From NCBI GenBank assembly GCA_003349915.1, contig QFXE01000021.1:1-64000 (forward strand): 64,000 nt of DNA, given 5' to 3'. This DNA comes from an endosymbiont of Escarpia spicata (lineage in GTDB: Bacteria > Pseudomonadota > Gammaproteobacteria > Chromatiales > Chromatiaceae). The position numbers and the translations under genes are program-made. Shown one piece after another: positions 9,954 through 62,072 of this stretch (position 1 is its first letter; the number at the start of each line of letters is the position of its first letter). The notes under the pieces are model-generated. The model saw only the letters and a program-made list of their open reading frames with translations, ran no database searches and was not told the origin of the DNA.

Positions 9954-12746
9954 TCACTCTCCGGACTCTTTCTTCTCCAGATATGCGACGTTGTCCGGCA
10001 CCGGCTCTTCAGTTTGCCTATCTTCCTCCTGTTTGAAACGGCGGGCCACCCCCTCCTCCTCGCGCAGCATCTCCAGCAACTCAGCGCCCGGCATGGGCCG
10101 GAAGAGCAGATATCCCTGCACCATGTGGCACCCCCGCTGCTGCAGGAATGTCAGCTGCTCAAAGGTTTCCACCCCCTCGGCAATGACGATTAGCTGCAGA
10201 CTGTGCCCCATGGCGATAATGGTTTCAACGATGCTCTCATCATTGCGGTCGCGTCCCAGATCCTGCACGAAGCTGCGATCGATCTTGAGACTGTTGACCG
10301 GCATCTCCCGCAGCCGGGAGAGGGATGAGTGGCCAGTGCCAAAATCATCGATGGCGATCTCAATCCCCATTGCAGACAACTCAGCCAATTGACCCGAGGA
10401 TTCTCCATGACTGTCCATCACCGTGGATTCGGTAATCTCCAGCACCAGGCGATCCGCCGGAAAATCACAGGCCTGTAACTCCGCGCGCACCATCTGCACC
10501 AGTTCACGATGCCTGAATTGTCCCAGGGAAAGATTCACCGCCAACTGAGGGCCGGAACCCTCTGGACTCAGCCACTCTTTTGCCTGCCGCAGTGCGGTTT
10601 TCAGCGCCCATGCGCCAAGGGGAATCACCAGCCCGGTCTCCTCTGCCAAGGAGACAAACTCATCCGGCGGAATCTCACCCGAGGCCAGATGCGGCCAACG
10701 CAACAGCGCCTCCACCACCTCAACGGAACGGTTCGCAAGATCGATGCAGGGCTGGTAGTGCAGTGTCAGTTCATCCTGCTCCAGCGCCTTGCGCAGATCC
10801 CGCTCCATACGCAGACGCCGGTCCACCTCCGCATTCATGTGAGGTTCGTAGAATGCGACACGACCGCGCCCCTCCCCTTTGGCATGGTACATGGCAATAT
10901 CGACATTGCTCATGAGCTGAACCGGATCGGTGCCGTCCTGTGGATATGCAGCCACGCCCACGCTCGCTGAGACATAGACTTCATAGCCCTCCAGGTCGAA
11001 TGGCTGGCTCAGCTTGTCGATAATCTTCCCTGCCACCTGGCTACCAAGGTTCATCACTTCAGCCCGGGAGGTCACGTCTTCCAGCAGTACAGTGAATTCG
11101 TCCCCACTCATCCGCGCAACCGTGTCCTCTTCGCGCAGACAGTCACGCAACCGCTCTCCCACTTGCTGCAGCAGCAGGTCACCCATCGCATGGCCGAGAG
11201 AATCATTCACCGGTTTGAAACGATCGAGATAGAGATAGAGCACCACCAGCTGCAGGTTCTTGCGCCCGGCGTTCTCCAGAGCCTTGTCGAGACGCTCATA
11301 GAACAGTACACGATTGGGCAGACTGGTCAGCGCATCGTAATGGGCGAGGTGGTAGATGCGCTCATCAAACAGTTTCTTATCACTGACATCGTTACCGATG
11401 GAGAGGATCTCCACCACCTTCCCCTGCTTATTGCGGACCGCCCGATTCGCCCAGGAGACCCAAACCCTGCGTCCATCCTTGCAGACATTCTCATTAATAT
11501 TGCTGATATAGAAATCTGGATGCAGTGCGATATCCCGGATCAGGTCGGACAGATCCCGTCCTGACCCCGACTCGGTCTCAGGTACAATACAGTCCATTAA
11601 ATGCCGGCCCACTACCTCCTGTTCGGAATAGCCAAAGAAACGCAGGGCAAACTGATTGAAAAAGGTGATTTTCCCTTGGATATTCCAACGCAGAATGATG
11701 CTGTTGGCCGACTCTACCAGTTCACGATAGTTCTCCTCACTGCGGCGCAACTCTTCGGTACGTTCCAGGAAACGCCACTCGAGTTTTTCATTGAGTTTTT
11801 CCAGTGCCTGTTGTGAAACCGTAAGTTGAGTACGGGTTCGTCGAGACTGATTTGTGAGAATCAACATCAACACAACACTAATCAGCAACCCGGCAGCCGC
11901 CACAATCCAGGCTTGTCTCCTTGCCTGCTCGAACAAGGTGGTCACATCGACGAAGAGGATGATCTCACCGATCTGCTGCTCCAGATTATCTCGCAGAGAG
12001 AGCCGCCGCAGATGATGATTTCTGCCGGACCAGACGATCTGCTCCGCATCGCTTCCCCAACCGGCAACCCGTTCCAGACTGGGGATCAGGGTCCCGGCAG
12101 CAGCCGAATTAAAGGAGAGGATTTGAGGTACTTCGAAAAACCGCTCATCCGGGTTTGGGACAACCACATCCGCGACCATCCCGCCATCCCGATTGATACC
12201 AACCAGCAGCGTTTCCTGAAACGCCTTTCCGGTGTTGATCAGGACAGGCTCGATATTCGCGGTCAACAAGATTCCGCCAACAACCTGCCCCGCTTTACGC
12301 CTCACCCCGGCAACCCCCATCGACAGACTGCCTCGCGCCCCCGCGATCAATCCATTTACAGGAAACTCACTGGCCAGGGCGTCATACAGTAGCAGCTTGA
12401 AGGATTCACTTGGCGCCGGACGGGACTGCTGCTCAGGAAACAACAGTGTGCCGGATGCATCAAAATACCAGGTCTGAAAATCCTCTTTCTCTTTTTGTGT
12501 TTCAATTGGGAAATTCAGCGGCGCTGGAGTACGGCTCAACGCTTCCCATCTGTGAAGCATGTCCAAGCGGAGCTCAGATAGCCGTGTGTCATAGAGCTGT
12601 TGAAACAGCGCTGTCTGCCCATTGACATGGATAGACAAGCCGTTCTGGAGGTGGAAATAGACGGCCCCAATGGCCGCCGCTCCAAGCAGGAGCACGGCCA
12701 GGATCGGCGGGGATAAAAACCGCCAGTAGAATCCATTATTGTTCAT
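9954..12746 (-). CDS. membrane PAS-GGDEF-EAL protein, likely c-di-GMP phosphodiesterase
   Basis: A 930-residue protein from the ATG at 12746, which has AGGGA upstream; the frame extends to 12800. Membrane helices at about 12-31 and 280-298 enclose a periplasmic sensor domain. A PAS domain (about 338-455), GGDEF (465-635) and EAL (645-895) follow. The EAL domain keeps EAL at 679-681, DDFGTG at 800-805, Lys821 and EGVE at 857-860, so it should hydrolyse c-di-GMP. The GGDEF half reads SGDEF (547-551), and the first metal aspartate of the DxD motif is a tyrosine (LYLYLDRF), so cyclase activity is doubtful. An RxxD site (538-541) remains. It lies between mscK-like and dCMP deaminase genes on one strand. 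Confidence 0.88.
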   Translation of the reverse strand: MNNNGFYWRFLSPPILAVLLLGAAAIGAVYFHLQNGLSIHVNGQTALFQQLYDTRLSELRLDMLHRWEALSRTPAPLNFPIETQKEKEDFQTWYFDASGTLLFPEQQSRPAPSESFKLLLYDALASEFPVNGLIAGARGSLSMGVAGVRRKAGQVVGGILLTANIEPVLINTGKAFQETLLVGINRDGGMVADVVVPNPDERFFEVPQILSFNSAAAGTLIPSLERVAGWGSDAEQIVWSGRNHHLRRLSLRDNLEQQIGEIILFVDVTTLFEQARRQAWIVAAAGLLISVVLMLILTNQSRRTRTQLTVSQQALEKLNEKLEWRFLERTEELRRSEENYRELVESANSIILRWNIQGKITFFNQFALRFFGYSEQEVVGRHLMDCIVPETESGSGRDLSDLIRDIALHPDFYISNINENVCKDGRRVWVSWANRAVRNKQGKVVEILSIGNDVSDKKLFDERIYHLAHYDALTSLPNRVLFYERLDKALENAGRKNLQLVVLYLYLDRFKPVNDSLGHAMGDLLLQQVGERLRDCLREEDTVARMSGDEFTVLLEDVTSRAEVMNLGSQVAGKIIDKLSQPFDLEGYEVYVSASVGVAAYPQDGTDPVQLMSNVDIAMYHAKGEGRGRVAFYEPHMNAEVDRRLRMERDLRKALEQDELTLHYQPCIDLANRSVEVVEALLRWPHLASGEIPPDEFVSLAEETGLVIPLGAWALKTALRQAKEWLSPEGSGPQLAVNLSLGQFRHRELVQMVRAELQACDFPADRLVLEITESTVMDSHGESSGQLAELSAMGIEIAIDDFGTGHSSLSRLREMPVNSLKIDRSFVQDLGRDRNDESIVETIIAMGHSLQLIVIAEGVETFEQLTFLQQRGCHMVQGYLLFRPMPGAELLEMLREEEGVARRFKQEEDRQTEEPVPDNVAYLEKKESGE

Positions 12747-12864
12747 TATTTGCAAGTCCCTAAATCCCATCCCTGGTGACTCTACGAGCCCGCCAAGCAC
12801 TAATTCATCATGATCGATACACCACCATCAGACAAACAGATACGTTCCCGAGTTGAAAGAACGG

Positions 12865-19180: not shown

Positions 19181-20647
19181 ATGATGGCGATAGATTACAT
19201 GGCGAACGCCGATAGCGGGTTTTCCTTTGCGGAAGAAACCGAGGATTCGAAACATCTGGGTCCTGATGACACTCATCCGTGGAAAATATTGGTGGTGGAT
19301 GACGAGGAGGATATCCACCAGGTCACACGTATGGTGCTTGGTGATTATCACTACCTGGGACGCCCAGCCTTCATCATTGACGCCTACTCTTCCGAGCAGG
19401 CCATTGAAGCGATGCGGGAGCACCCGGATGTCGCCTTGATTCTTCTTGATGTCATCATGGAATCGGATACTGCAGGACTGGAACTGGTAGAGGTGGTTCG
19501 AAACAAGTTGGGGAACAGCGATGTGCGAATCTTCATCAGGACTGGACAACCGGGAATGTTCAATCAGTATCAGATTGCCGCTCAGTACAATATCAATGAT
19601 TTTAAAGATAAAGCGAACCTGACGGTTGAAAAGCTGTTTGCCTCTATCACGACGCTACTGCGTGAATATTCCGGCCTGCAGGAGATGCGGCAACAGCAAA
19701 AAAATCTGCAAAATAATATCGATCAACTCAAAGCATTGGCAAGTTTATTCCAGGAGACATCGCTGGCAACACTGGTCCTTGATGATCAGTACAGAATCAA
19801 GACGGTAAATCCTGCATTTGAAAAAGTGACTGGTTTTTCTGCGGAGTATGCAATTGGCAGGCGAGCTGACTTCCTCAAGTCGAACCATAACGATGAGACC
19901 ATTCTGAATGCAGCTTGGGAGAATCTTCTCGACAGTGGTTCGTGGGAAGGTGAGTTGTGGTGCGCAACGAAATTTCTCAACGATATCAATATTCGGCTCT
20001 CCGCTTCCGTATTAAAGGTAACAAATCACCATCATCGCGAAATTGCGATGCAGTTTTCAGATATCACCGATATCAAGGAGCAAGAAAGGCAGCTTTTGGA
20101 GCGGGCAACCCGTGATCCATTGACGTCATTGCCCAACAGAAATCTTTTTCTGGACCGTCTTGAGAATGCTATATCACTCTCTGAGCGGGGTGGTCAGAGT
20201 TTTGCACTGCTTTTTATCGACCTGGATTATTTCAAGAGTGTGAATGACAAGTTGGGGCACAAGTATGGCGATCAACTGCTGATTGAAGTGGCGGATCGTA
20301 TGAATCAATGTCTTCGCCGATCAGATACTCTAGCCAGAGTGGGTGGTGACGAATTCACAGCTATTGTCACAAACACCAGTAACTGTACCCACATCGAAAT
20401 CATTGCGAAAAAAATTAATGTCGCAGTAGCCAAACCTTTTTATTTGGACGGAAAGGAGGTACGCATCGCATGTAGCATCGGGATAAGGCGATATCCGGAT
20501 GATGCCCAGGATATTGAATATCTCCTGCATACGGCAGACCTGGCTATGTATCATGCCAAACAGAAAGGAAGAAACACCTCTAGCTTTTTTCTCCCTGAGA
20601 TGGATGGAGATACCACCGAGGAATCCTGCAAGGATGCTGATTCATGA
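19181..20647 (+). CDS. response regulator diguanylate cyclase (REC-PAS-GGDEF)
   Basis: A 488-residue cytoplasmic protein. The receiver domain (about 34-165) has the acidic pair Asp40-Asp41, phosphoacceptor Asp90 in LILLDVIM, and the RTGQPG/NDFKDK segments seen in receivers attached to DUF3369 proteins. A PAS domain (about 183-300) and GGDEF domain (310-475) follow. The cyclase site is intact: FIDLDYFK, GGDEF at 388-392, with an RxxD inhibitory site (RRSD, 379-382). Phosphorylation by the kinase encoded next should raise c-di-GMP. The last codon overlaps the kinase start as ATGA. An alternative ATG lies at 19199. Catalysis is predicted, not shown. Confidence 0.92.
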   Translation: MMAIDYMANADSGFSFAEETEDSKHLGPDDTHPWKILVVDDEEDIHQVTRMVLGDYHYLGRPAFIIDAYSSEQAIEAMREHPDVALILLDVIMESDTAGLELVEVVRNKLGNSDVRIFIRTGQPGMFNQYQIAAQYNINDFKDKANLTVEKLFASITTLLREYSGLQEMRQQQKNLQNNIDQLKALASLFQETSLATLVLDDQYRIKTVNPAFEKVTGFSAEYAIGRRADFLKSNHNDETILNAAWENLLDSGSWEGELWCATKFLNDINIRLSASVLKVTNHHHREIAMQFSDITDIKEQERQLLERATRDPLTSLPNRNLFLDRLENAISLSERGGQSFALLFIDLDYFKSVNDKLGHKYGDQLLIEVADRMNQCLRRSDTLARVGGDEFTAIVTNTSNCTHIEIIAKKINVAVAKPFYLDGKEVRIACSIGIRRYPDDAQDIEYLLHTADLAMYHAKQKGRNTSSFFLPEMDGDTTEESCKDADS

Positions 20648-22524
20648 ATATTGTCGCATACAGGCGATTCTACTGGTTGTTCCCGCTACTGCTCTGGGGA
20701 AGTCTTTCCATATTGTCTGCTCTGTGGAATCTCTCCGGGCTTGATGGCATGGCCGAAAGACTCGCTTATGAGAGAGCACAAAGCATGTTCAGACTAGTGC
20801 AGATGACACGGCTCTGGAATGCAAAACACGGAGGTGTGTATGTGCCAGTCAGTGAATCAACACCTTCAAATCCCTATTTGGAAGTACCGGATCGGGACGT
20901 GGAGACGCTGGGCGGCGTCAAGCTGACCAAACTGAATCCAGCTTACATGACACGTCAGATAGCCGATGTGGCCAGAGAAAATAGCGGAATTCTTCTTCAC
21001 ATCACATCACTCAAACCAATCAATCCTAATAATGTGCCGGACATATGGGAGTCACAAGCACTTAACCTGTTTGAAAAGGATGTTCCTGAGATTCTGGAAT
21101 ATATCAGGCAAGATAGCAGCCGGGTCTACCGCTACATGGGACCACTGTATACCAAGAAGGCCTGCATGAAGTGCCACGAGAAACAGGGGTACGAGGTGGG
21201 TGATGTGCGTGGAGGTATCAGTGTGACCCTGCCTGCCGATCCCATTCTCTCGGCCCAGTCAACGGCAAGGTCTCAGGTTATTCAAATCCATCTTGCGGCA
21301 TTCATTCTATTGACCTGGACCACGCTGTTCCTGCTTTCCAAACTGCGCCAACAATGGCAGTTGGTGAATGATACCAAGGAGGTACTGGCTGGACGTGAGC
21401 ATTTCCTGAGAAGTGTCACCAATGCAGTGGGAGAAGGCGTTGTCAGCATGGATCGACAGGGTACGGTGACTTTTGCCAACCCTGAGGCGCTACGCATCCT
21501 GGGTTGGCGTGACTGGAAGGTGAATGCAGATGAGTCTGAAGAAACATCGGAAGCAGCAGGTTTTAAAACCTCGATAGAGTCCGTCACCCAGGCTGCTCTT
21601 ACTGCGGAAGCGGAGAGTGGCGGAGTCGTACGTGTGAATGAGGCTGCATTTAAACATCAGGAGGGCCATTCGATACCTGTCTCCTATGTATCTTCACCCA
21701 TTTTCGAAGGCTCGGAGTTCTCTGGAACAGTTACTCTTTTTCAGGATATTACCCTGCGCAAGGAGATGGAGAAGACACTGGTGAGATCAGAAACCATGTC
21801 AGCTCTGTGTGGCATGGTTGCAGGTATTGCCCACGAGGTTAATACACCCATCGGTGTCTCTGTTACCTCAGCATCCTATCTGGAAAACCAGACGAAAGAA
21901 CTTGTGCAGATTGTGACAGATAACAAACTTTCACGTTCAGCTCTGGATAACTATCTTGATCTCTGCAAAGAGTCGACTGCCATCATCCTCTCGAATTTGC
22001 AACGTGCAGAGCGGATGATCAAGAGCTTCAAACAGATTGCCGCCGATCAGGCCAGCGAACAGAAAAGCCGCTTTAATCTGAATACCTATATAAGCGATGT
22101 GATTCTCACGCTCAGGCCTGAACTGAAAAAAACCCAATTGAACATAGAGATTGAATGCCCTGATGATATCGAGCTGGAGAGCTATCCGGGAGCACTTTCA
22201 CAGGTTATTACCAATTTGATCATGAATTCAATGGTGCACGGTTTTTCCCAAAATAGTGCAGGTAATTTACGCTTTGAAGTGATGGATGAAGATAAGATTG
22301 TGCGGATTAACTACAAGGATGACGGAAAGGGTATAGCCCCGGAACATCTGGAGGATGTTTTTGCACCATTTTTCACGACGCGCCGGGGTAAAGGAAGTAG
22401 TGGTCTCGGACTGCATATCAGTCACAATCTGATCTACACGGTTCTCAAGGGTACGATCAGCGTCTCAAGTAAACTGAATGAGGGTGTCCAGTTTGTTCTG
22501 AATATCCCCAAATCTCCTGAGTGA
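20644..22524 (+). CDS. c-heme (DUF3365/Tll0287-like) PAS sensor histidine kinase
   Basis: A 626-residue membrane kinase. Helices at about 10-30 and 213-233 bracket a periplasmic DUF3365-like domain ending in CMKCH (174-178), a covalent heme c motif, followed by DVRGGISVTLPADPI, typical of that domain. A PAS domain (about 250-372), phosphoacceptor His397 in GIAHEVNTP, and the ATPase domain (ITNLIMNSMVHGF, DDGKGI, SSGLGLHI) complete it. It probably senses redox state or a small gas ligand through heme and phosphorylates the two flanking receivers. It overlaps the upstream gene by ATGA and the downstream gene by GTGA. The ligand is inference. Confidence 0.92.
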   Translation: MNIVAYRRFYWLFPLLLWGSLSILSALWNLSGLDGMAERLAYERAQSMFRLVQMTRLWNAKHGGVYVPVSESTPSNPYLEVPDRDVETLGGVKLTKLNPAYMTRQIADVARENSGILLHITSLKPINPNNVPDIWESQALNLFEKDVPEILEYIRQDSSRVYRYMGPLYTKKACMKCHEKQGYEVGDVRGGISVTLPADPILSAQSTARSQVIQIHLAAFILLTWTTLFLLSKLRQQWQLVNDTKEVLAGREHFLRSVTNAVGEGVVSMDRQGTVTFANPEALRILGWRDWKVNADESEETSEAAGFKTSIESVTQAALTAEAESGGVVRVNEAAFKHQEGHSIPVSYVSSPIFEGSEFSGTVTLFQDITLRKEMEKTLVRSETMSALCGMVAGIAHEVNTPIGVSVTSASYLENQTKELVQIVTDNKLSRSALDNYLDLCKESTAIILSNLQRAERMIKSFKQIAADQASEQKSRFNLNTYISDVILTLRPELKKTQLNIEIECPDDIELESYPGALSQVITNLIMNSMVHGFSQNSAGNLRFEVMDEDKIVRINYKDDGKGIAPEHLEDVFAPFFTTRRGKGSSGLGLHISHNLIYTVLKGTISVSSKLNEGVQFVLNIPKSPE

Positions 22525-24125
22525 GTAGTGAGATTAACATGCGCATAGAAACCGGCAATCAATCAGATGAACTCCTGTTTGTTGATGAAGATGTCGCCAA
22601 ACCCTCTTCCATCGATGAGACACTGGATCCCTGGAAGTTACTGATTGTTGACGATGAATCCGATATCCACCGAGTGACCTGCATGGTATTGGGGGACTTT
22701 AGTTTTATGGGGCGTAGCCTGGAGTTCCACCACGCCTATTCGGATGTTGAAGCGAGGCAGATGCTGGAGCAACATTCTGATATTTCCCTCATTCTGCTTG
22801 ACGTTGTCATGGAACAGGACGACTCGGGCCTGAAACTGGTTGAGCATATTCGCAATGTGCTGAAGAATCGTTTTGTACGCATTATTCTACGAACCGGACA
22901 GCCGGGTTTAGTCCCCCTCAAGAAGGTCATTGTGGACTATGACATCAATGACTATAAGGAGAAGTCAGAACTTACCGATCAGAAACTTTACGCCACCCTG
23001 GTCGCCTCATTGCGGGAGTACGATCATCTCGTCACGATTGAAGAGAATCGAAAAAAGATAGAACTTAACAAGATGGGACTGGAAAAGATCATCCAGGCCT
23101 CAAACTCTATCTTCGAGCTTTCATCTCTGCGTAATTTTGCACAGGGTGTTCTGTTGCAGTTTGAAAGTCTGTCTGGAGTGGATGTCCACTCCATCTATAC
23201 CAAGGTTGATGGTTTTTCAGCGATACAAGAGCGTAGTGATTTCAAAATTCTCGCGGGTACTGGCTATTATACAGATCATCTTGAAGAACCGGTGGATGAG
23301 ATTCTCAAAGAAGAAGATCTGAACCGGATCAGGGATGCGGTGAGCCAACAAACCAATCAGTACGGTTCTGATTATTTTGTCTGTCAGGTTCAAAATAACG
23401 TCGGCCAAACCCATGTACTCTATGTTCATGGTAACAATTTATCGGTAAAGGGAGTCGACCGTGAATTGATTGAGGTATTCAACACAAATATCTCTGTTGC
23501 CTTCGAAAATCTGCATCTCACTCAGGAGATTGAACACACCCAGCATGAGATTATCTATACACTTGGCGAGGTAACTGAGGCCAGATCCTACGAAACGGGT
23601 TTTCATGTAAAGCGTGTAGGTGAATTTTCACGAATCATGGCCCGACGCTACGGACTGGATATAAAGCAGGCTAACCTGTTGAAGGTGGCCGCTGCCCTGC
23701 ATGATGTGGGTAAGGTGGGTATCCCCGATGCGATATTGAATAAACCTGGCGCTCTGACAGAAACAGAGTTCGATGTAATGAAGGAACACGCCATGCTCGG
23801 CCATAAGATTCTTGGGAAATCAAAACGGGAAATGCTCAAGACTGCATCAGTCATAGCGCATCAGCATCATGAACATTTTGATGGCAGCGGCTATCCTCAG
23901 GAATTGAAAGGCGATGAGATAGATATATTTGCCCGTATCGTTGCAGTCTCAGACGTTTTCGATGCGCTGAGCAGTGATCGTATCTATCGCCCAGCCTGGA
24001 ATGATGAAAGGATTTATGGCTATTTCCGAGAGCATAGAGGCAGCAAGTTTGATCCCGATATTGTTGATACCTTTTTTGATGCGCTGCCAGAACTACTGGA
24101 GATCCGAGCGCTCTTTTCTGATTGA
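22521..24125 (+). CDS. response regulator c-di-GMP phosphodiesterase (REC-DUF3369-HD-GYP)
   Basis: A 534-residue protein starting with GTG inside the kinase stop (GTGA). The receiver (about 36-165) carries Asp44-Asp45 and phosphoacceptor Asp94 and is clearly related to the receiver of the cyclase two genes upstream (DPWKLLIVDDESDIHRVTCM here, HPWKILVVDDEEDIHQVTRM there). A DUF3369 sensor-like segment covers about 175-335. The HD-GYP domain has HDVGKVGIP (His394-Asp395) and HHEHFDGSGYP with Gly457-Tyr-Pro. It should degrade c-di-GMP to pGpG and GMP. With the cyclase and kinase it forms a compact antagonistic module. Confidence 0.93.
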   Translation: MSSEINMRIETGNQSDELLFVDEDVAKPSSIDETLDPWKLLIVDDESDIHRVTCMVLGDFSFMGRSLEFHHAYSDVEARQMLEQHSDISLILLDVVMEQDDSGLKLVEHIRNVLKNRFVRIILRTGQPGLVPLKKVIVDYDINDYKEKSELTDQKLYATLVASLREYDHLVTIEENRKKIELNKMGLEKIIQASNSIFELSSLRNFAQGVLLQFESLSGVDVHSIYTKVDGFSAIQERSDFKILAGTGYYTDHLEEPVDEILKEEDLNRIRDAVSQQTNQYGSDYFVCQVQNNVGQTHVLYVHGNNLSVKGVDRELIEVFNTNISVAFENLHLTQEIEHTQHEIIYTLGEVTEARSYETGFHVKRVGEFSRIMARRYGLDIKQANLLKVAAALHDVGKVGIPDAILNKPGALTETEFDVMKEHAMLGHKILGKSKREMLKTASVIAHQHHEHFDGSGYPQELKGDEIDIFARIVAVSDVFDALSSDRIYRPAWNDERIYGYFREHRGSKFDPDIVDTFFDALPELLEIRALFSD

Positions 24126-57476: not shown

Positions 57477-57717
57477 CTTATCCTCAAACCTGTTCATCAA
57501 TATTCAGTTAGGATTTCAAACCCCTAATAATCTTGCGGATTTAATGCTATAAGTTTACTGTTGGGATGAGGTTGCAGGAATGCTGATCCGGCGAAATTGA
57601 TGCCGCTCAGCAAAACAAAAACAATGGCTTGGATTCACATCGCTTTCAAATCATGCAGCTGCGCCCGCTGCAAGCCCGCTATGTGTTGCCACCAATTAAA
57701 AATATTATAAATTGGCA

Positions 57718-59862
57718 ATGGAAAAATCAGTTATTAGTGTAATGCTGGAGTTGGATGCGAGCAGGCTTCCATCCGTTCCCCACGTACTTCTTCAATTAAT
57801 AGACATCTGCAATCATGCCGACGTCTGTTTTAGCGATCTGGAAACTATCATCCGCCAGGACGCTGCCCTCTCATCCAAGGTCCTTGCGGCAGCAAATTCC
57901 CCTATTTATAGACAGTGGGGATCCGAAGCCAGCCTTGGACGATTACTGGTTGTACTCGGCTTAAATACCGTCAAAACCATCGCCATGACAAGTGCGGTGC
58001 AAGACCTGTTCTCCCAGGTCGACGACTCTGTCAGTCAATATATGGATGAAATCTGGCTGCACTCCCTGACATGCGCCCATACAGCACGCGCAATTGCACG
58101 TTTAACCACCTACCAATCACCCGATGAGGCCTACATTGCCGGGCTGTTACATCGTGTAGGACAATTGGTCCTGCTACGAAACTTTCCCGCTGAATACTCA
58201 GATATTTCCGTGGAACCCTTTTCCGGGCAGGAACTGGAAAAACTTGAGAATGAAAAACTGGGCTTCACCCACAGCGAAGTGGGGGCCTACCTGATCGACA
58301 GCTGGCATCTGCACTCTTTCATGGCCGATGCCGTGCACTACCAGTACGAGCCTGCTGTGCTGATTCAAGACAGCACACCCCTGGTAAAAATCATTAACCT
58401 TGCAAGCCAGTTAAGCAGCCTCAACGGCACCCCGGACAACACAGTTTTCAAACAGGCGGATGATCTGTTTGGATTGACCCAGCCACTGCTCGAAGAGATG
58501 TTGAACAACGTTGATGAGCAGGTCGACAACATTGCCAAAAGCCTTGGAATCTCACTAACGAAATCAGCAAAGACTGGTAATAGGGGGATAGACACGACTC
58601 CCGCACGCAAGCAACTGAAAGAGCAGTTAAAAGAGCGTATAAAAACGGCTGCCATCGTCGGCATGGCCTCACATCGAACAGGACCACAGGTTCCATTAAA
58701 TGAGACACTCGCCTCTATTGTCCAAAATGCCCGTATCCTTTTCGACCTGACTCCAATCAGGGTTTTTCTCTACGATCAGGGGCTGAATCAACTCGCATAT
58801 ACCCCATCAGAAGAGACCGAGTCCGGACCTTTCGCTGACATCTCAATTTCCCTGGAAACGGGCAGAAGCATGATTGCTGACTCTCTTTTGCAGGGCGAGC
58901 CGAGGCATTGGCTTGAAAACGGTGAAAACAGATCCATTTCCATTGTGGATCGTCAGATCCTGACCCTTATGAAAAATAACGGGTTACTTTCAATTCCATT
59001 GATAACTGAAGGGCGTACCGTCGGCGTTTTGATCGCTGGCATTGAACAGGTGGACTGGAACAGAATCGAGTCCAACCTAATGCTGGTCTCAACCTTTGCC
59101 GACGGGGCAGCAAAATCTATACAGCAGCAAATTACCATCATCCGTTCCGAAGAGGAGCGGATTGAAGAAGCACGATCAGAATTCCAACTACACGCAAGAC
59201 AAATCATTCACGAAGCCAACAACCCTCTCGGCATCATTAACAACTACCTGCATATTCTTGGCACAAAATTGGGAGAGGATCATGCTGCCCACGAGGAACT
59301 TCGCATCATCAAGGATGAGATCGAACGTGTAGGAAAGATCATCCTGCGCCTGCGCGATATGCCTTCCGATAACGGGATTGAGCAAGGATTCGTTGACCTC
59401 AACAGTCTGATCCTCGATGTTGAAAAAATTTTTCACACCTCACTTTTCGTGACCCATGACATCAGCGCCCAGCTTGACCTCGAAGCCTCTCTGCCCCCGG
59501 TTGCCGGCAGTCGCAATACCCTTAAACAGATACTTACCAACTTGATCAAAAATTCGGTTGAAGCGATGAGTGATGGAGGGAAGATTACTTTAATCTCCAA
59601 AGATAAAATCAACATGAATGGTAAGAGCTACGTTGGGATAGAGGTCATTGATACCGGTCCAGGCATTCCCGACGAGATCATGGAGAATATCTTTTCGCCG
59701 GTAAAGAGCACCAAAGGAGCCGGTAATGCAGGCCTTGGTCTCACCATCGTAAAAAATCTTATTAACGAACTCTCAGGCTCCATCAGTTGCACCTCAAGCC
59801 ATGAAAAGGGCACAACTTTCCAGATTCGCTTACCCAGGAGAATCCCCATGGGGGACATGTAG
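57718..59862 (+). CDS. HDOD-GAF histidine kinase
   Basis: A 714-residue soluble protein from the ATG at 57718; a TTG at 57712 is possible. An HDOD domain (about 10-210) has LPSVPHVLLQLIDICN, IIRQDAALSSKVLAAANSP and LGRLLVVLGLNTVKTIAM. A GAF-like domain (about 320-470) and a kinase core follow: the putative phosphoacceptor His is in IIHEANNPLGIINNYLHIL, with LKQILTNLIKNSVEAMSDGG and DTGPGIPDEIMENIFSP, NAGLGLTIVKNL in the ATPase. HDOD domains gather in signalling output and often link to c-di-GMP. It ends two bases before the REC-GGDEF-EAL gene, its likely partner. Confidence 0.87.
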   Translation: MEKSVISVMLELDASRLPSVPHVLLQLIDICNHADVCFSDLETIIRQDAALSSKVLAAANSPIYRQWGSEASLGRLLVVLGLNTVKTIAMTSAVQDLFSQVDDSVSQYMDEIWLHSLTCAHTARAIARLTTYQSPDEAYIAGLLHRVGQLVLLRNFPAEYSDISVEPFSGQELEKLENEKLGFTHSEVGAYLIDSWHLHSFMADAVHYQYEPAVLIQDSTPLVKIINLASQLSSLNGTPDNTVFKQADDLFGLTQPLLEEMLNNVDEQVDNIAKSLGISLTKSAKTGNRGIDTTPARKQLKEQLKERIKTAAIVGMASHRTGPQVPLNETLASIVQNARILFDLTPIRVFLYDQGLNQLAYTPSEETESGPFADISISLETGRSMIADSLLQGEPRHWLENGENRSISIVDRQILTLMKNNGLLSIPLITEGRTVGVLIAGIEQVDWNRIESNLMLVSTFADGAAKSIQQQITIIRSEEERIEEARSEFQLHARQIIHEANNPLGIINNYLHILGTKLGEDHAAHEELRIIKDEIERVGKIILRLRDMPSDNGIEQGFVDLNSLILDVEKIFHTSLFVTHDISAQLDLEASLPPVAGSRNTLKQILTNLIKNSVEAMSDGGKITLISKDKINMNGKSYVGIEVIDTGPGIPDEIMENIFSPVKSTKGAGNAGLGLTIVKNLINELSGSISCTSSHEKGTTFQIRLPRRIPMGDM

Positions 59863-59864
59863 CG

Positions 59865-62072
59865 ATGACGATCACCAAGCATTCGACATCAAGACTACAA
59901 GGAAGTAACGCACATCAGACATCACAGATAAAGGAGCGGGCCAAGCGCAACAAAGAAAGAAATTCAGCCCGTATTTTAATAGTCGATGACGAACCCCGGG
60001 CCAGCGAAAGTCTGAGAGCGATCCTGCAATTCTCCGGCTACACCATCATAACTGCGAATGGTGGGCGTGAGGCGATTGATGCGTTGAAAACAGACACTTT
60101 TGATTTGGCGCTCCTTGATCTGAATATGCCGGATATCGATGGCCACCAGGTAATGGAATTCATCAAAAGCGACAACCACAATACCAGCATCATCGTAATC
60201 AGCGGGGAATCTGGCTTCGACCATGTGGCCAGTGCACTGAGAAAAGGTGCAAAGGATTTCATCTGCAAACCCTACATGGCAGACGAACTGTTGCTATCGG
60301 TATCCAATGCATTGGAGAGACAACACCTGACTAATGAGAACGGCCGTATTCAGGAGAAATTAAGACGCTCAGAAACGCTTCACCGTTTTCTCATCAACAA
60401 CTCTCCCGATCTGATTTACATGCTGGATCAGGAAGGAAGATTTACCTTCGTAAACAATCAATTTGAAAAAAACCTTGGATTCGACGCAGGGGAACTTCTG
60501 AAACAACCTTACACCTGTTTGATACCTCCAGACGACCTTGAAAAGGCAAAATACATCTTCAATGAAAGACGCACCGGCGACCGTACAACTCGCAATACGG
60601 AACTTAGACTGAAAAGCAAAGACTTCGATTCCCCCAACTACGTCGATGTTCGTTCTGTTGCTATCGAACTGAATTCAATGGGCATCTACTCCACCCGGCT
60701 AAACAGCAAAAAAAAATTCGTCGGTACTTATGGGGTCGCACGTGATATCACTGAACGAAAACAGTCCGAGGAGCTGATAAAATATCAGCTTTACCATGAC
60801 CTGTTGACCAGTCTTCCAAACCGAACACTGTTCCGGGACAGGCTCAACATCGCTTTAGCCCAGGCAAAACGAAACAAAAAAATGCTGGCTGTTCTCTACC
60901 TTGATATGGACAGCTTCAAAATCATCAATGACACCCTGGGGCATCATGCAGGGGATGAGTTGCTACAGTCCATTGCCGCACGCTTAAAAGGCTGCCTCCG
61001 CGAGGCTGATACCCTGGCAAGGGTCGGGGGGGATGAATTCAATCTCCTGTTGCCTGATGTTAGCGACAGAAACGATATAACCACAACTGCAAACAAGATT
61101 CTGAAAGAGCTTGAGAAGCCATTCCACCCCAGCCTGCAGGAAGTGTTCGTTACCTTCAGCATCGGCATCGCCGTCTATCCTAATGATGGCGACTCCAAAG
61201 AAATGCTGGTAAAAAATGCCGATATGGCAATGTATCAGGTCAAAAACTCCGGTAAAAACGGTTTTGCATTTTTTGCAGATCACATGAAGGAACAGTTTCA
61301 CAAGAGACTGGATATTGAGAACGGCCTGAGACGGGCACTCCTCAACAATGAACTGAGACTCCATTACCAACCGAAAGTAGAGTTAAAAAGCAGGGAAATC
61401 GTTGGTGCAGAAGCCCTTGTCAGATGGCAGCACCCTGATCTGGGACTTTTGCCGCCCTCCGAATTCATCCCTATCGCCGAGGAGAGTGGACTGATTATCC
61501 AAGTTGGTGAATGGGTATTAAGACAAGCCTGCAAAGATGCATTTAACTGGATGGAGCTTCATACCCATCCCGTAAGCCTGTCAGTCAATCTGTCCACTCA
61601 GCAACTCGAATCAGAAAATTTCACTGCTACCGTATTAGGGATTACCAGCGAGTTCAACCTTCCCCGACAACTCCTCGAATTGGAGATCACCGAAAGTTCA
61701 ATTGTACAGAACATGGAAAAGGCCGTAGAGAATCTTGGCATTCTGCATCGCTATGGTATCCGTGTTGCAGTGGATGATTTCGGTACAGGTTACTCATCAC
61801 TTGGCTATCTTCAGTCTCTTCCGCTTCACACCCTCAAAATCGACCGCTCCTTCATTCATGCGATAAAATCCACACAGGATGAACACTCCATAATCGAGGC
61901 CGTAATCGCCATGGCAAAGGGACTGGGACTGGACATCATTGCAGAAGGCGTAGAGAACGAAGACCAACATCATTTTCTACACAACGCCGGGTGTTTGATG
62001 GCCCAAGGCTATCTATACAGCCATCCTCTCCCAGAAGCCGATTTTCGGCAGCTGTTCTCCGAAACCATTTGA
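59865..62072 (+). CDS. response regulator with PAS, GGDEF and EAL domains
   Basis: A 735-residue protein. The receiver (about 35-150) has Asp41-Asp42, phosphoacceptor Asp85 and Lys135. PAS covers about 170-298. The GGDEF domain is intact (LYLDMDSFK, GGDEF 388-392, READ inhibitory site 379-382). The EAL domain is intact too (EAL 516-518, DDFGTGYSS, LKIDRSF, IAEGVEN). Both making and breaking c-di-GMP are possible, with phosphorylation choosing the direction. It follows the HDOD kinase by two bases, so the pair likely forms one phosphorelay. A basic, Gln/Lys-rich N-terminal tail of 30 residues is unusual. Confidence 0.9.
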   Translation: MTITKHSTSRLQGSNAHQTSQIKERAKRNKERNSARILIVDDEPRASESLRAILQFSGYTIITANGGREAIDALKTDTFDLALLDLNMPDIDGHQVMEFIKSDNHNTSIIVISGESGFDHVASALRKGAKDFICKPYMADELLLSVSNALERQHLTNENGRIQEKLRRSETLHRFLINNSPDLIYMLDQEGRFTFVNNQFEKNLGFDAGELLKQPYTCLIPPDDLEKAKYIFNERRTGDRTTRNTELRLKSKDFDSPNYVDVRSVAIELNSMGIYSTRLNSKKKFVGTYGVARDITERKQSEELIKYQLYHDLLTSLPNRTLFRDRLNIALAQAKRNKKMLAVLYLDMDSFKIINDTLGHHAGDELLQSIAARLKGCLREADTLARVGGDEFNLLLPDVSDRNDITTTANKILKELEKPFHPSLQEVFVTFSIGIAVYPNDGDSKEMLVKNADMAMYQVKNSGKNGFAFFADHMKEQFHKRLDIENGLRRALLNNELRLHYQPKVELKSREIVGAEALVRWQHPDLGLLPPSEFIPIAEESGLIIQVGEWVLRQACKDAFNWMELHTHPVSLSVNLSTQQLESENFTATVLGITSEFNLPRQLLELEITESSIVQNMEKAVENLGILHRYGIRVAVDDFGTGYSSLGYLQSLPLHTLKIDRSFIHAIKSTQDEHSIIEAVIAMAKGLGLDIIAEGVENEDQHHFLHNAGCLMAQGYLYSHPLPEADFRQLFSETI

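Follow-up and report, generated by a model that had tools for sequence, protein, structure and literature searches.

In Shewanella, a heme-based NO sensor (HnoX) acts through a kinase (HnoK) on a c-di-GMP phosphodiesterase regulator (HnoB) that is tuned by HnoD (PMC8846402). The NosP-NahK-NarR system of Legionella is alike in that NO and a kinase are joined to c-di-GMP, which is both made and broken (PMC8846402). In the sCache_heme signalling proteins, a periplasmic Cache domain with a CXXCH motif and no axial cysteine is placed on signalling modules, histidine kinases included (PMC12889525). This 2026 preprint reports slow NO release and no stable O2 complex for a signalling-type sCache_heme protein without the axial cysteine, and weak NO binding for a stand-alone one (PMC12889525). 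The Geobacter heme sensors GSU0582 and GSU0935 are reported to bind both CO and NO (PMC3460858).

The window, by which we mean the whole stretch of 64,000 nucleotides that was analysed, carries at 19181-24125 on the forward strand the genes of a cyclase, a kinase and a phosphodiesterase, in that order (Table 1). The sequence-only reading had described three genes overlapping by ATGA and GTGA, and its coordinates, frames and overlaps proved exact. It had also given the two flanking regulators opposite outputs, one making and one breaking c-di-GMP; the profile matches to GGDEF and HD_5 and the intact motifs uphold this as the predicted function, and by Pfam and motif reading the signature residues of all three proteins are intact. 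Promoter and terminator scans gave no excess over shuffled sequence. The genes for DUF4389 and DUF2333 downstream were considered as parts of the module and left outside it, because neither has a tblastn match at E 1e-20 in the interval between the phosphodiesterase gene and metG of genome G002.

Table 1. Features of the three-gene locus (window positions; aa, residues of the respective protein)
Feature	Position	Strand	Residues or length; basis
REC-PAS-GGDEF diguanylate cyclase response regulator (predicted)	19181..20647	+	488 aa; Pfam and ORF
Alpha-1 helix of cyclase receiver	19304..19348	+	aa 42-56; presumed kinase-docking face
GGDEF domain	20105..20575	+	aa 309-465; Pfam PF00990, E 1.5e-49
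ATGA stop/start overlap, cyclase to kinase	20644..20647	+	sequence
Membrane histidine kinase (predicted)	20644..22524	+	626 aa; hydrophobic stretch, sCache_heme, hydrophobic stretch, PAS, HisKA-like helix (H397), HATPase
sCache_heme (Tll0287-like/DUF3365) sensor domain	20758..21234	+	aa 39-197; PF11845, E 6.3e-22
c-type heme motif CMKCH	21163..21177	+	aa 174-178; sequence
Kinase core	21760..22521	+	aa 373-626; belongs to a widespread kinase family
GTGA stop/start overlap, kinase to phosphodiesterase	22521..22524	+	sequence; ATGA instead in G003 and G005
REC-DUF3369-HD-GYP phosphodiesterase response regulator (predicted)	22521..24125	+	534 aa; Pfam and motifs
DUF3369 domain	22998..23531	+	aa 160-337; PF11849, E 2.2e-37
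HD-GYP catalytic domain	23604..24062	+	aa 362-514; PF13487 (HD_5), E 6.9e-33

Domain and motif together mark the first protein as a probable diguanylate cyclase. GGDEF starts at residue 388 and is preceded by RRSD at residue 379, that is, an I-site of the form RxxD-x5-GGDEF; RVGGDEF is kept in all six genomes of the genus, as are the acidic-pair, phospho-Asp and Thr motifs of the receiver. The Pfam scores of the two trio receivers, 29.8 and 26.2 bits, lie slightly under the cut-off of 30.2. The third protein is a probable phosphodiesterase with HD at residues 394-395, HHE from 449 and GYP from 457, all kept in the five genus genomes (5/5) with the gene in view. The metal dependent phosphohydrolase 4mcw is a relative of solved structure (E 1.2e-54), and for VCA0210 of V. 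cholerae, which has the same REC, DUF3369 and HD-GYP domains, hydrolysis of c-di-GMP in vitro is reported (PMC4212101). Assignment to the NosR-family c-di-GMP phosphodiesterases (NF053512) was rejected, as the score was 132.5 bits against a cut-off of 400 and the HD-GYP part alone matched.

For the central protein a periplasmic CMKCH site of the DUF3365 type had been proposed, and both site and domain type are supported by the sequence comparisons. The term heme-sensing kinase needs correction, as the protein is predicted to sense by means of a bound heme and not to detect heme itself. It scores 79.0 bits with the Tll0287-like profile (cut-off 24.1) and contains CXXCH, which together place it among the sCache_heme proteins. 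A profile search with the sensor finds 5b82 (Tll0287) at E 1.7e-10. The AlphaFold2 model of the sensor (pLDDT 94.3) has 5b82 as its top fold match (E 1.2e-6), and the Geobacter heme sensors 3b42/3b47 follow at ranks 4, 6 and 7. In a hydropathy scan by 19-residue windows, the hydrophobic stretches show up in those that start at residues 9 and 212-214, and HATPase_c is found with a Pfam E value of 2.2e-18. The sensor has no cysteine besides C174 and C177 of the heme motif, which is so in every uninterrupted kinase of the genus (4/6), so that the axial cysteine of Tll0287 is absent. No axial cysteine, a membrane anchor as judged by hydropathy and the fusion to a signalling module are features that the kinase shares with the NO-sensing signalling sCache_heme proteins. 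We also note that kinase residue 389, immediately ahead of the H-box, is a cysteine, in place of the glycine found in almost every aligned relative.

The sensor type points to NO as the most likely ligand, an assignment by analogy which is less certain than that of the shared kinase discussed below. The evidence for NO comes from a single tested signalling protein and from the Geobacter sensors, which bind CO too. A sensor of redox state or of CO would be compatible with a shared kinase. This we regard as possible but rather unlikely: a Tll0287-type domain with a predicted c-type heme, the CO binding of GSU0582 and GSU0935 (PMC3460858) and an interrupted NirS-sized gene in the window's genome speak for it, and against it stand the missing axial cysteine, unlike Tll0287, and the reported behaviour of the signalling-type member as an NO sensor (PMC12889525). 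The genus itself is equipped with genes of the cytochrome cd1 family and a CcmF/NrfE-family gene, both in 6/6 genomes. By length we would name the cd1 genes NirS, NirF and NirN. The NirS-sized frame is uninterrupted in four of the six genomes (G001, G003, G004 and G005); in G002 it is in two pieces (G002:C53:27308-28761), and in the window's genome it contains one in-frame TAG (G000:C3:173007-174179, L285), and NO production by the bacterium itself is accordingly less certain here.

H-NOX genes occur in two of the six genomes, G003 (L283 7974-16446) and G005 (G005:C1 around 2999798-3000277), in both cases with DUF2333 on one side and metG on the other, some 7.4 kb from the phosphodiesterase gene. 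In G003, the one genome for which Pfam was run here, a PAS kinase gene and a REC-HDOD gene come after H-NOX, and REC-GGDEF-EAL and REC-HD_5 genes lie on the opposite strand; the locus holds two kinases. One shared location amounts to one event, and the closeness of H-NOX to the trio is only suggestive. Elsewhere in the window there are a PAS-GGDEF-EAL gene (9957-12800) and an HDOD-GAF-kinase gene (57712-59859) beside a REC-PAS-GGDEF-EAL gene (59865-62069). Two other sCache_heme genes of the same genome are shorter than their relatives: one frame is split before GGDEF-EAL (G000:C9:80776-83435, L101 6777-9436), the other has 382 residues where relatives have about 1060 (G000:C1:108108-108596). 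Both are probably frameshifts or assembly errors.

The kinase has orthologues in the five other genomes of the genus, 90-94% identical. Four of the six, namely the window's, G002, G003 and G004, carry the whole trio in open frames. The three genes are all present in G005 too, where a frameshift interrupts the kinase near residue 557. The G001 sequence contains the cyclase gene and the greater part of the kinase gene, then a run of 10 N, and no phosphodiesterase gene lies beyond within the stretch read. Median dN/dS values (NG86) are 0.195 for the cyclase (6 genomes), 0.154 for the kinase (4) and 0.087 for the phosphodiesterase (5), and the trio is thus under purifying selection. Several species of the genus carry the gene order, which is therefore not due to chance; the idea that it might be confined to a single strain fails.

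We searched for the kinase in 55 genomes of relatives, the 6 of the genus and 369, 210 and 398 genomes of the class, order and phylum (overlapping sets), scoring per genome at most 23 candidates among the relatives, 3 in the class, 6 in the order and 3 in the phylum. From outside the genus we collected 112 family kinases with at least 36% identity to the core; their loci are best matches and thus not a random sample, and L126, the reverse complement of L031, was omitted. In 55 of the 112 a receiver of the trio's receiver family lies within 1.5 kb, so that kinase and receiver appear as a matched family. These receivers are joined to HD-GYP (35), to GGDEF(-EAL) (7) or to another or no recognised output (13). 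A GGDEF and an HD-GYP regulator around one kinase were found in none of the 112 (0/112). The counts are lower bounds, since for 21 of the 112 kinases the contig or the stretch ends close by. Pairs or lone genes, and no trio, were seen at 40 loci brought in by receivers and at 20 further loci. Pairs of the kinase core with an HD-GYP or a GGDEF(-EAL) regulator are widespread; in the samples searched, only the window's genus showed the cyclase arm of the trio.

Among the matches listed, none from outside the genus spans sensor and kinase with more than 32% identity. The contig search met at least 579 relatives. Among the best 80 of these, the closest protein spanning both is that of L174, a Rhodocyclaceae MAG, which has no PAS and is 41% identical to the window's kinase in an alignment without PAS; rare trios may escape a search of this depth. 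L174 and L083, whose linker looks HAMP-like by eye, are the two other loci at which sCache_heme is joined to the trio's kinase family. Each lies beside a REC-DUF3369-HD-GYP gene, and thus the half made of sensor, kinase and HD-GYP regulator recurs. In G549, of another genus in the same family, we observed a 254-residue membrane sCache_heme sensor (L306 7539-8303) that is 66-67% identical to that of the trio and stops just before the PAS-kinase part; no match to kinase core, cyclase or phosphodiesterase was found within the 16 kb read around its gene. Separate Tll0287-like proteins near a family receiver or kinase were also seen in L318 (910-7975, G576), L163 (5332-12759) and L107 (1364-5342).

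Could one kinase serve both regulators? A search of the window's genome with the cyclase receiver yields two receivers at E 1e-12, the two of the trio; there are likewise two in each of G002-G005 and one in G001. At E 1e-60, each of the six genus genomes has a single kinase. The trio receivers belong to one family and are 47-51% identical to each other. In known complexes of histidine kinases with response regulators the alpha-1 helix is a main contact with the kinase, and beta5-alpha5 is another. Residues 42-56 of the cyclase receiver, which by these complexes we take to be the docking face, were fixed before the sliding scan was made. In this helix the two receivers are 73% identical, compared with 44% elsewhere in the receiver. 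For comparison we took family pairs matched to the trio outside the helix; their mean is 36.5% (sd 10.5), and 0.15% of the 1344 pairs, which are not independent of one another, reach the value of the trio. The sliding scan (41 windows) is highest at residues 40-54 (z 3.2) and lowest at 127-141 on the alpha4-beta5 side (z -3.5). The copies of G004, G002 and G005 also have 73% in alpha-1; in G003 the likeness is weaker, with 60%, a value reached by 2.9% of the matched pairs. As a control we took 11 same-locus receiver pairs from elsewhere, several of them not clearly around one kinase: 10 of the 11 are at or above the matched mean, and L088 alone falls under 1% (0.26%). Speaking against a shared kinase, beta5-alpha5, likewise fixed before the scan, has no excess likeness, as its 50% equals the overall value and the scan gives z -1.3 and -0.6.

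The two receivers had also been called closely related. This is right for alpha-1 and for membership in one family; elsewhere they are as distant as other family members or further. In the receiver tree, which is built on few columns, leaves 24 forks open and has a bootstrap that did not settle, the two sets stand in different places, each as a genus clade with 100/100 support, and a long branch (1.03) sets the cyclase receiver apart from the phosphodiesterase receiver. A recent duplication of the trio receivers is thus not supported, since they are not sisters in this tree, and a recent duplication of the whole domain does not explain the likeness of the helix. An old duplication or gene conversion may lie behind it. 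Taken in silico, the exclusive receiver family at E 1e-12 and the alike helices support the earlier proposal that one signal could set both arms. That one heme-based kinase would serve both regulators is our best reading, towards which we lean with some reserve.

We suggest that the trio works as a branched two-component module of one kinase and two regulators. A periplasmic c-type heme in the sCache_heme domain, most likely bound by NO arising in the periplasm, would control the kinase. The kinase would then pass phosphate to both flanking regulators, as the exclusive receiver family and the alike docking helix suggest, and c-di-GMP would be set through synthesis and breakdown together. The overlaps suggest translational coupling, by which the three proteins might be made in fixed proportion. 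We favour a version in which the arms respond unequally or oppositely to phosphorylation, so that the signal would move c-di-GMP one way. The full proposal, a periplasmic NO sensor kinase that moves cyclase and phosphodiesterase oppositely through non-sister receivers with alike docking helices and output faces apart, is put forward quite tentatively.

Phosphorylation activates many REC-GGDEF and REC-PDE proteins. If it activates both enzymes here, a controller of gain or turnover results and not a switch, with kinetics and product inhibition of the cyclase tuning c-di-GMP. This is compatible with a shared kinase and draws on the general behaviour of such proteins and on the retained RxxD I-site; it would be costly, and in the cyclase receiver the alpha4-beta5 side has diverged, which leaves room for a different coupling. 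We consider it conceivable, if somewhat doubtful.

In another scheme, to which we give little credit, the kinase would serve the HD-GYP regulator only, as a one-to-one pair, and the co-transcribed cyclase would be driven by its own PAS domain or by another source of phosphate. At other loci most kinases of the family stand beside a single regulator of this kind or none, the commonest being HD-GYP, and the same is true of the sCache_heme kinases of L083 and L174. The cyclase also has the highest dN/dS of the trio, and its receiver keeps 48 of 65 conserved positions, compared with 58 in the phosphodiesterase receiver, which its beta5-alpha5 does not especially resemble. Against a cyclase uncoupled from the kinase stand the receiver motifs kept in 6/6 genomes, the resemblance in alpha-1 and the absence of a second family kinase at E 1e-60 in the genome.

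If our preferred reading is true, there would be a direct link from the periplasmic NO of a probable denitrifier to both the making and the breaking of c-di-GMP. The locus would also offer a compact natural case for experiments that separate kinase specificity from the output polarity of two receivers. The trio may, by analogy, work like an HnoK-type network, and HnoK reportedly phosphorylates HnoD too. The trio was rejected as a member of the HnoK-type NO network, as no H-NOX match was found in the window's genome. The Hno system further differs in having a separate H-NOX protein, and a phosphodiesterase with a phosphodiesterase inhibitor in place of cyclase and phosphodiesterase (PMC8846402). 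In Legionella, one bifunctional DGC-PDE regulator takes the place of two, and the sensor is a separate FIST-type protein (PMC8846402). For the sCache_heme signalling proteins, the cited parts of the preprint describe no trio of cyclase, kinase and phosphodiesterase, and the tested protein has TM helices and HAMP (PMC12889525). Within the terms searched, we found no description of such a trio in the open-access literature.

Of the loci examined, L170 from a Hahella MAG comes nearest in layout, with a kinase, an HD-GYP regulator and a GGDEF-EAL regulator in a row. It has no sCache_heme match, its receiver helices show no special likeness (40% identity), and a second family kinase follows 1.2 kb on, so that it is perhaps two adjacent pairs. 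The pairs of kinase and REC-DUF3369-HD-GYP regulator share the kinase core, the receiver families and the phosphodiesterase architecture of the trio; at the loci examined, nearly all have other sensors and none has a cyclase arm around the same kinase. In summary, the parts of the module are known, and their combination is apparently new and, in the samples searched, restricted to the genus.
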